In this document: in pieces, positions 1 to 4,689 of the stretch
Position numbering within the stretch: position 1 is the first letter of the stretch
Layout: every line of letters starts with the position of its first letter
Source: Acidimicrobiaceae bacterium
Lineage (GTDB): Bacteria > Actinomycetota > Acidimicrobiia > Acidimicrobiales > Ilumatobacteraceae
Direction of reading: 5' to 3'
NCBI GenBank assembly: GCA_002698945.1
Contig: NZZV01000061.1
Location: 1 to 34,516 of the forward strand
DNA: 34,516 nt
Made by a program: the position numbers and the translations under genes
Notes under the pieces: model-generated
Database searches by the model: none
Seen by the model: the letters and a program-made list of their open reading frames with translations, nothing else
What the model was told of the DNA's origin: nothing

Positions 1-91
1 AGAACCCGTCAGGCAACCGGCTCGACGTCGATGACGCAACGACGGTCATCGACGGGAGAACCCGTCAGGCAACCGGCTCGACGTCGATGAC
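1..91. repeat. 35-bp direct repeat, partial duplication of the rpmA 3' end
   Basis: Bases 1-35 are repeated exactly at 57-91, a period of 56 bp. The second copy contains the last codons and stop of rpmA (minus strand); the first copy lies just downstream of the gene. The copies diverge after base 35/91. This looks like a local tandem duplication of the gene end, although an assembly artefact at the contig or window edge cannot be excluded. Confidence 0.85.
26..54 (-). terminator. Hairpin downstream of rpmA, possible terminator
   Basis: A perfect 10-bp inverted repeat (26-35 with 45-54) encloses a 9-nt loop, starting about 11 bp beyond the rpmA stop codon in the transcript. There is no U-tract, as is common for actinobacterial terminators. 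The upstream arm comes from the duplicated rpmA end. It could end the rplU-rpmA transcript or act as a 3' stabiliser. Confidence 0.4.
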
Positions 92-934: not shown

Positions 935-1249
935 TCAGCACGAGCCGCGTGGCGCATATGCCGGACGATGCGGTTCGTCCGAGAGCTCCACGGCGAGCTG
1001 TTTCACGAAGCGTCCCTTGGTGACGATGCGCATCTGCGACGCGATCCCCGACAGCACCGGACTCACCAGGATCGTGAAGTCGGGATGCCGGACCTGCGTG
1101 TACGGCGCCAGATTCTTGTTCGTCGTGTTGGTGTCGACCGACACCTCGGCGATCTTGCCTCAACCGGTCGGGCGGATGAAGTCGATCGACAGCGTTCCAC
1201 CACGCTTGTGCAGGAGGGCAGCTGCGTCGTCGGTGATCTCGAGTTCCAC
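935..1249 (-). CDS. HesB/IscA-like protein with in-frame TGA (candidate selenoprotein)
   Basis: Read through one TGA (1160-1162), this frame gives 104 aa from GTG at 1249: VELEITDDAAALLHKRGG, then a strand ending RPTG, the TGA at position 30, then GKIAEVSVDTNTT and a conserved-looking C-terminal half. The segment aligns by eye with IscA: IRPTG-TGA-G against VRTSGCSG, so the TGA occupies the place of the first cluster-binding Cys. The downstream half stays in the same frame for 74 codons. HesB-like selenoproteins are a described bacterial group. A SECIS-like hairpin follows the TGA by 14 nt. The usual C-terminal CGC is absent; a lone Cys is the last residue. An alternative GTG start is at 1279. 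The other explanation is a nonsense-mutated pseudogene. Confidence 0.55.
1130..1145 (-). promoter_or_regulatory. SECIS-like hairpin after in-frame UGA
   Basis: In the minus-strand RNA, GGUGUC-GGUC-GACACC forms a perfect 6-bp stem with a GGUC loop beginning 14 nt after the UGA. The loop starts with GG followed by U, and the GU lies about 20 nt from the UGA. These features match what is known of bacterial SECIS elements; E. coli fdhF has an AGGUCU loop on a similar stem 11 nt after its UGA. GTCGAC-type palindromes are common in this GC-rich DNA, so chance is possible. Confidence 0.5.
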
Positions 1250-2604: not shown

Positions 2605-4689
2605 TCAGTCGAGCATGCTGTGGTCGACCAGGACGCCGCGACCCTCGCAGTCGGGACAGATCTCCGAGAACTCGGTGAGGAGCCCCTCGCCGATCCGCTT
2701 ACGGGTCATCTCGACCAGACCGAGATCGGAGATGTCGAACACCTGGGTCCGGGTCTTGTCGCGAGCCAGCGCCTCCCGGAACTGGCCGACGACCTTGGCC
2801 CGGTTGTCCTTGATCTCCATGTCGATGAAGTCGATCACGATGATGCCGCCGATGTCGCGCAGGCGGAGCTGCTTGGCGATCTCGACGGCGGCCTCCATGT
2901 TGTTGTGGAACACCGTCTCTTCGAGGTTGTGCTTGCCGACGTTCTTGCCGGTGTTGACGTCGATGACCGTCAGCGCCTCGGTGTGTTCGATGATCAGCGA
3001 TCCGCCCGACGGCAGCCACACCTTGCGGTCGAGTGCCTTGTGGACCTGCTCGTGCACGTGGAACCGCTCGAACACCGACAACCCTTCGGCCTCGGCGTCG
3101 TAGTACTCGATCCGGTCGGCGAGTTCGGGATTGAACGCCTTCACGTAGGCGTGGACCTCGTCGAACAGACGCTTGTCGTCGATCACGACACCGCGGTAGT
3201 CGGGGTTGAACTCCTCGCGGATCACCCGCACGGCCAGTTCGGGTTCTCGGTACAGCAACGCCGGCTTGTTCGCCTTGGCCGCCTTGGCCTCGATATCGGC
3301 CCACTGCTGCAGCAGCAGCTGCATGTCGGCTTCCAGATCGGCCTCGGTGGCGTGCTCGGCCGCGGTGCGGACGATCAGCCCGTGCTGTTCGGGCTTGACG
3401 CGGTCGAGGATGTTGCGCAGCCGCTTGCGGGTGTCGTCGGGCAACCGCTTCGAGATGCCGTACGTCTTCGAGTTCGGAATGAGCACGACGAACCGTCCGG
3501 GCAGCGAGACTTCCTGGGTCAGGCGCGCGCCCTTGGCCCCGATCGGGTTCTTCGTGACCTGGCACATGATCATCTGCCGGGCCTTGAGGATGTCTTCGAT
3601 CCGGGCGTTCTTGCCCTTTTCTTCGATGTCCTCCGGGTCGTACTGCACGTCGCCCCGGTACAGGACAGCATTCTTCGGTGTGGCGATGTCGACGAAGGCG
3701 GCCTCCATACCCGGCAGCACGTTCTGGACCCGACCGAGGTAGATGTTGCCGTGGATCTGGCTGATGTCGTCCGCGGGACGTGACACGTAGTGCTCGATCA
3801 GGTTGCGTCCCTCGAGCACTGCGACCTGGCTGACGCCGGGTCGGACCTGGACGCACATGAAGTATCGACCGACCGGTTTGCCGTTGCGCTCGCGACCACC
3901 GCGCTGGGCGACGAGCTCACGTTCGGCATCGGTCATCTTCTTCTTGCCACGGCCGCCGCGGCGGCGCTTCTTCTGACCGCCGTCTCCACCGTCGTCGTTC
4001 GACTCGTCCCGCCCGGCACGTTCCTGACGGTCCGACTGCTGACCGTTGCTGGGCTGACCGCCGCTCTGCTGACCGCCCTTGTTGCGCGCCTTGCCGCCGC
4101 GGCGGCGACGCTTGTTGCCGGATCCGCCTCCCGACGACGTCTCGGCGTCACCGGACCCACGCTGGTTCGACGTGTTCGGCTTCGTCCCGTCTTGTTTCGA
4201 TACGTCCTGTTTCGACGAGGACGTGGCCGGCCCCGGGGGTGGGACCGACGGGCGCGGCGGAGCGTCGCGGACGTCGCCGACCTGCGGCTTGCGCACGAGC
4301 GACTGCTCGGCGACGGCCGGGTCGTGCACCTTGCCCTCGCTGATCCGCTCGGGAAGTTCGTCGGGATCGCGTCCGTTCGACGCAACGTGGGAGGAGCTGT
4401 CGTTCGAGGCGTCGTCGCCGGTCTGGTCGGGGCGCTTGCGGCCCTGACCGCCGCGCGATCCGCGACGGCGCTTGCGTTGGCCCGACGACGTTCCGTCGCC
4501 GGAACCGTTCGAGTCGCTCGAGTCGTCGGAACCGCCGGTGTCGTTCGTGGCTCGTTGGTCGGATGCTTCGGCCGAGTTGTCCGTTGCGGGGGTGCCGGAG
4601 CGTTCGTGGTTACCGGGCGAGTCGCTCGCTGTCCCGGTGGTCTGGTTCGGTGAGTCCGGCTGATCGCCGGTTCGTGTGGGGTCGTCCAT
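2605..4689 (-). CDS. rne: Ribonuclease E/G
   Basis: The 694-aa product is an endoribonuclease for rRNA/tRNA maturation and mRNA decay. Residues 1-255 are a disordered, charged extension with KRRRRGGK-type basic clusters, as in actinobacterial enzymes and unlike E. coli, where the long tail is C-terminal. An S1 RNA-binding segment follows (about 310-395, HGNIYLGRVQNVLPGMEAAFVDI). The DNase-I-like catalytic core has Mg-binding Asp577 in TVIDVNTGKN and Asp620 in IIVIDFIDM, and the Zn-link CPDCEGRG lies at 678-685. There is no C-terminal degradosome scaffold. The ATG at 4687-4689 has an AAGGAA site 5-6 nt upstream. It follows the TIGR03936 gene by 12 bp, in the usual order. Confidence 0.96.
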   Translation of the reverse strand: MDDPTRTGDQPDSPNQTTGTASDSPGNHERSGTPATDNSAEASDQRATNDTGGSDDSSDSNGSGDGTSSGQRKRRRGSRGGQGRKRPDQTGDDASNDSSSHVASNGRDPDELPERISEGKVHDPAVAEQSLVRKPQVGDVRDAPPRPSVPPPGPATSSSKQDVSKQDGTKPNTSNQRGSGDAETSSGGGSGNKRRRRGGKARNKGGQQSGGQPSNGQQSDRQERAGRDESNDDGGDGGQKKRRRGGRGKKKMTDAERELVAQRGGRERNGKPVGRYFMCVQVRPGVSQVAVLEGRNLIEHYVSRPADDISQIHGNIYLGRVQNVLPGMEAAFVDIATPKNAVLYRGDVQYDPEDIEEKGKNARIEDILKARQMIMCQVTKNPIGAKGARLTQEVSLPGRFVVLIPNSKTYGISKRLPDDTRKRLRNILDRVKPEQHGLIVRTAAEHATEADLEADMQLLLQQWADIEAKAAKANKPALLYREPELAVRVIREEFNPDYRGVVIDDKRLFDEVHAYVKAFNPELADRIEYYDAEAEGLSVFERFHVHEQVHKALDRKVWLPSGGSLIIEHTEALTVIDVNTGKNVGKHNLEETVFHNNMEAAVEIAKQLRLRDIGGIIVIDFIDMEIKDNRAKVVGQFREALARDKTRTQVFDISDLGLVEMTRKRIGEGLLTEFSEICPDCEGRGVLVDHSMLD

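Follow-up and report, generated by a model that had tools for sequence, protein, structure and literature searches.

Introduction

Selenocysteine (Sec) insertion at UGA in other bacteria is established to depend on SelB, which carries Sec-tRNA and binds a SECIS hairpin at the UGA codon. In IscA, Cys35 and the C-terminal cysteines bind metal or Fe-S. Published criteria for bacterial SECIS elements (bSECIS) describe a stem of 4-16 bp with a loop of 3-9 nt, a G in the first two loop positions, a distance of 16-37 nt from the UGA to the loop, and a minimum free energy at or below -7.5 (PMC13188914). The same source lists 119 prokaryotic selenoprotein families and subfamilies (PMC13188914), and HesB-like selenoproteins are described as small, with Sec placed in a HesB-type protein (PMC1794560, PMC13188914).

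The locus considered here lies in the window, the whole stretch of 34,516 nucleotides that was analysed from the genome of an Acidimicrobiaceae bacterium. A gene that seems to be broken by a stop codon is almost certainly an intact selenoprotein gene whose product has the shape of an IscA-type iron-sulfur carrier. Literature searches turned up no account of it from Ilumatobacter or Acidimicrobiia, although absence from the papers searched is not proof.

The reading frame and its homologs

The gene occupies positions 935-1249 on the minus strand, with a GTG start at 1249 and a terminal TGA at 935-937. From 1249 to 938 the frame encodes 104 residues, and its sole interruption is a TGA at 1160-1162 (minus strand, codon 30); the minus-strand sequence of 935-1249 is VELEITDDAAALLHKRGGTLSIDFIRPTG-TGA-GKIAEVSVDTNTTNKNLAPYTQVRHPDFTILVSPVLSGIASQMRIVTKGRFVKQLAVELSDEPHRPAYAPRGSC-TGA. 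Translation bore out the single in-frame TGA in an otherwise open frame that a preliminary description had reported, and 40 other distinct homologs could be aligned with the product over its full length. The terminal TGA, which directly follows Cys104, was considered as a second Sec codon and rejected for the window gene, because homologs also end at that place with TAG (L022).

A scan of genome contigs yielded five Ilumatobacter or Acidimicrobiaceae homologs with 56-86% identity. The gene was found in 18 of 100 relatives searched (the window genome is included in both numbers), and all 18 carry a single TGA at the same place. Alignment-based searches across the class and the phylum added more distant members from Actinomycetota, and after removal of identical genes the set comprised 41 distinct Actinomycetota sequences, the window gene included. 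The codon-30 column of this set holds TGA in 30 sequences and TGC or TGT (Cys) in the other 11, and nothing else; the 30 distinct sequences that share the TGA extend to identities below 40%. The preliminary description had proposed a search for homologs with Cys or TGA at position 30, and the members found are also conserved downstream of the column. This distribution is a classical Sec/Cys exchange. On a tree computed with the Sec and hairpin columns removed, three Sec/Cys changes are required, of which only one gives an independent contrast on well-supported branches. Some genomes with a Cys form lack a selA match (G222, G262); others retain one (G243, G427). One apparent homolog, L056 in G391, was discarded as a spurious match.

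Cys104, encoded at 938-940 (minus strand), is the proposed partner of Sec30. The tail Cys is invariant in alignments of 28 and of 41 sequences when the TGA of one homolog, L103, is entered as Cys; every other member has the Cys itself. In L103 (1486-1785, minus strand, genome G494), a second in-frame TGA stands precisely where the other members have the codon for the conserved C-terminal Cys (GPT-TGA-QH-TGA). The product would be either a two-Sec protein or one shortened by three residues at its end, the Cys among them; this case comes from a single draft genome.

Selection on the frame was compared on the two sides of the internal TGA, and dN/dS was well below 1 in each part. In comparison with the two nearest homologs, values of 0.09-0.10 were obtained before the TGA, and of 0.13 (codons 41-88) and 0.14 (codons 31-88) after it. 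By these ratios purifying selection acts on the frame both before and after the TGA, and the stretch beyond the TGA is therefore translated and needed.

A SECIS-like hairpin retained only with the TGA

Fourteen nucleotides after the TGA, at 1145-1130 of the minus strand, lies a hairpin, GGUGUC-GGUC-GACACC, with a perfect 6-bp stem and a 4-nt GGUC loop. When the 44 nt from the TGA onward are folded, the hairpin is part of the minimum-energy structure (-13.8 kcal/mol); the bare stem-loop has a folding energy of -8.1 kcal/mol, and its exact motif occurs once in the window. The earlier proposal of a SECIS-like stem at a typical bacterial distance held up: the hairpin agrees with all four published criteria, having a 6-bp stem, a 4-nt loop that starts with GG, 20 nt from TGA to loop, and an energy of -13.8 kcal/mol (PMC13188914), and its conservation is linked to the TGA. 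Taken by itself, the window hairpin is weak evidence, because a hairpin with a perfect 6-bp stem follows 6.9% of the window's TGA trinucleotides at +8 to +40, and because the fold z-score is only -1.3; the case rests on comparison with homologs. A scan of positions 600-1500 against Rfam gave chance matches only, and no Rfam family supports the hairpin.

The comparison was far more telling. The hairpin is kept in 30 of 30 TGA homologs and in none of the 11 Cys homologs (Fisher p = 3e-10, with relatedness ignored). All 30 TGA genes keep GUGUCGGUCGACA(C/U); at the DNA level, GTGTCGGTCGACA is found in every one of them, followed by C in 29 and by T in one. Codons 36-39 read GTG TCG GTC GAC in each of the 30, compared with a mean synonymous entropy of 0.98 bits at other conserved columns. 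The 11 Cys genes, which lack the hairpin, encode AAIDT, VAIDT, VAVDT, IAFDT or VVAD-type sequences at this place. Across the 27 distinct sequences in which pairing was scored, 100% of the pairing cells are kept. The stem changes that do occur all preserve pairing: in L042, where the spacer from TGA to stem is longer by three bases, a G-C pair is switched to C-G on both sides, and two further changes turn G-C into G-U. The hairpin is almost invariant, so the covariation support is thin, with one compensatory and two G-U changes. The Sec/Cys exchange and the matching loss of the hairpin amount to a clean natural experiment on the constraint that a SECIS element places on the encoded protein, with VSVDT in the Sec forms set against AAIDT, VAIDT or VVAD-type sequences in the Cys forms.

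A lone TGA in an otherwise open frame and the existence of Cys-bearing homologs might suggest that a Cys or other codon has recently been disabled by mutation. This reading can be dismissed with near certainty: the TGA is shared by 30 distinct sequences whose identities fall to below 40%, dN/dS beyond it is about as low as ahead of it, and the hairpin is retained only alongside it. The preliminary description had stated that a lack of sel genes, or an unrelated residue at the TGA position with no conservation downstream, would mark a nonsense pseudogene; neither was found, and the pseudogene is ruled out.

The selenocysteine machinery

The preliminary description had also proposed looking for selA, selB, selC (tRNA-Sec) and selD, and all four are present in the window genome, an incomplete draft (about 82%). 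The selA and selB genes are adjacent on contig C151 and selD lies on C25, each over curated cut-offs, and a tRNA-Sec gene with anticodon UCA is found on C216. Among the 100 relatives (window genome included), a selA match occurs in 76, of which 74 are over the cut-off. Every one of the 18 genomes with the gene has such a match (one of them a fragment at a contig end), compared with 58 of the 82 genomes without it (Fisher p = 0.005). Because selA matches were found in 76 of these 100 relatives (G000-G099), selenocysteine use is widespread in this order of Actinomycetota.

A rival reading is that UGA is decoded as another residue (Trp or a near-cognate one) or serves programmed leaky termination, in either case without selenocysteine. 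This reading is very improbable: Cys is the only other residue at the codon-30 column, the Sec machinery is present, the hairpin satisfies the bSECIS criteria, and TGA is not reassigned, because it also serves as the terminal stop of the window gene and of most homologs. Insertion of Sec in vivo at UGA-30 is, by contrast with such readthrough, strongly supported by these comparative data. SelB carrying Sec-tRNA would bind the downstream hairpin when the ribosome meets UGA-30, and the codon would be decoded as selenocysteine.

Predicted fold and the cluster-cysteine position

An AlphaFold2 model based on the 41-row alignment had a pLDDT of 83, with a low-confidence C-terminal tail. The closest structure was 2d2a (SufA), with Z 9.3 and 84 residues superimposed at 2.6 A, followed by 1r94, 1s98 and 1x0g (Z 9.1), and the next unrelated chain reached Z 2.3. 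IscA, SufA and their relatives were the only folds above background, and an earlier model from 20 rows agrees. The window protein is predicted from this modelling to have the IscA/SufA (HesB) fold.

Alignment with hhalign against the IscA-type proteins encoded by the window genome and by related ones placed Sec30 on the Cys of GGCSG (E 2e-4, with a probability of only 46%); the aligned motifs are RPTG-U-GK in the window protein and KPGG-C-SG in the IscA-type proteins. The resemblance to IscA is borne out by the predicted fold and by this profile-profile alignment, and the latter agrees with the earlier by-eye assignment of the TGA-encoded residue to the first IscA cluster cysteine, which would place Sec at a cluster-ligand position of the IscA fold. 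Pfam PF01521 gave no match for 20 members at E up to 10, and a sequence-profile search of solved structures gave none. Of the label "HesB/IscA-like selenoprotein", the part that stands is the HesB/IscA fold, by prediction and profile alignment; membership in the known HesB-like family does not, as neither PF01521 nor TIGR01911 matches. We regard it as highly probable that the locus is an intact 104-residue selenoprotein gene whose product has an IscA/SufA (HesB) fold.

Gene neighbourhood

Downstream of the selenoprotein gene, and likewise on the minus strand, lie rplU for ribosomal protein L21 (344-652; Pfam PF00829, E 2.7e-32) and then rpmA for ribosomal protein L27 (65-319; PF01016, E 2.3e-33). 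Upstream lies a gene of the RNase E/G family (2605-4689, minus strand; PF10150, E 2e-104). Among the 41 loci, RNase E/G is found upstream in 13, and directly so in most, and rplU and rpmA are downstream neighbours in 10 and 11, respectively. The neighbourhood RNase E/G-selenoprotein-rplU-rpmA is conserved in Acidimicrobiia, and this order was not seen at the more distant actinobacterial homologs. The window keeps the order, but two divergent plus-strand genes (1330-1914 and 1976-2569) intervene, one for a TetR-family regulator and the other for a small protein that is predicted to be secreted and has no Pfam match; in most relatives that show the order, unlike in the window, the RNase E/G and selenoprotein genes are direct neighbours. 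A direct repeat of about 35 bases (window 1-35 and 57-91), at the very end of the contig, where rpmA has its 3' end, is perhaps an artefact of the assembly end. Searches of plasmids and of viral contigs gave no relative, and the window gene thus shows no sign of mobility.

Proposed function

The selenol would sit at the place of the first IscA cluster Cys, in a P-T-G-U-G-K loop, and the conserved Cys would lie on a flexible C-terminal tail. Most likely, the product would be a small selenol/thiol protein whose Sec30 and Cys104 pair up, whether for redox chemistry or for binding a soft metal or Fe-S. Selenol/thiol chemistry as such is very likely, because of the Sec/Cys exchange seen in the alignment, and the choice between a redox role and a metal or Fe-S binding role is about evenly balanced.

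A more specific reading, which we consider unlikely, gives Sec the role of a ligand to Fe-S or a soft metal within an A-type carrier fold. The protein, encoded between the genes for RNase E/G and L21/L27 in Acidimicrobiia, would then be a natural Sec-ligated carrier or sensor that might couple RNA turnover or the assembly of ribosomes to selenium or to the redox state. A redox selenoprotein forming a Sec30-Cys104 selenenylsulfide, and not acting as a metal or Fe-S carrier in spite of its IscA fold, has a chance just short of even. The IscA-type CGCGxSF tail is absent, with one conserved tail Cys left, and Sec exchanges freely with Cys, a behaviour that redox selenols typically show (PMC1794560). 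Against this, Sec occupies the cluster-binding place of IscA in a fold that is that of Fe-S carriers, and the tail of several homologs holds two cysteines (CC or CxxC). Our preferred description is a small selenol/thiol protein with Sec30 and Cys104 acting as a pair, in redox or in metal or Fe-S binding.

Comparison with known systems

The hypothetical selenoprotein DG (NF049953) has a similar-looking short motif around Sec (GUxG). An identity with this family was rejected: its 172-position model finds nothing in the window genome and gave one weak match in seven genomes, located elsewhere.

The TIGR01911 HesB-like selenoprotein resembles the window protein in its small size and in carrying Sec within a HesB-type protein (PMC1794560, PMC13188914). 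It differs in its UxGP motif, which was not found in the window group, where nearly all members have UGK or UGG; the TIGR01911 model matched none of the 41 members at E up to 1.

With IscA and SufA (PF01521), the window protein shares the predicted fold, a first cluster Cys that aligns with Sec30, and a Cys-containing C-terminal tail. The CGCGxSF tail of the genome's own IscA-type protein is absent from the window family. The three-Cys set of IscA (GGCSG and the C-terminal CGC) is not found, the first being replaced by Sec and one tail Cys being common to nearly all members.

Pfam gave no match, and the sole consistent match is NCBIfam NF041239, the CC/Se motif (seleno)protein family of Moorella thermoacetica type, which was hit by all 41 sequences (best E 7.7e-10). 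For the window gene the match covers nearly the full protein length but reaches 17.6 bits, below the cut-off of 40; the best relative in the phylum search scores 34.9 bits. Lined up by eye, the second Cys of the family's G-C-C-G-G motif falls on Sec30, and in place of its first Cys the window gene has Gly (PTG-U-GK). The residue before Sec or Cys is Gly, rarely Ser, Thr or His, in all 41 members, none of which has the CC motif, and actinobacterial genes over the NF041239 cut-off have GCCGG. Two actinobacterial sequences below the cut-off, L083 and L087, carry CCGG and CCGA motifs and look intermediate between NF041239 and the window group. By these comparisons the window gene is homologous to NF041239, its nearest relative, yet it falls below the cut-off of that family.

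Because it neither reaches the NF041239 cut-off nor matches TIGR01911, the window group is best described as a new and apparently unannotated subfamily in actinobacteria. No model of NCBIfam release 20.0 or Pfam accepts the gene at its cut-off, and annotation pipelines would probably overlook it or call it truncated. The group extends the list of 119 families and subfamilies in PMC13188914 by one from actinobacteria, and, unlike NF041239, it is distinguished by a conserved C-terminal Cys and by the hairpin encoded within VSVDT.
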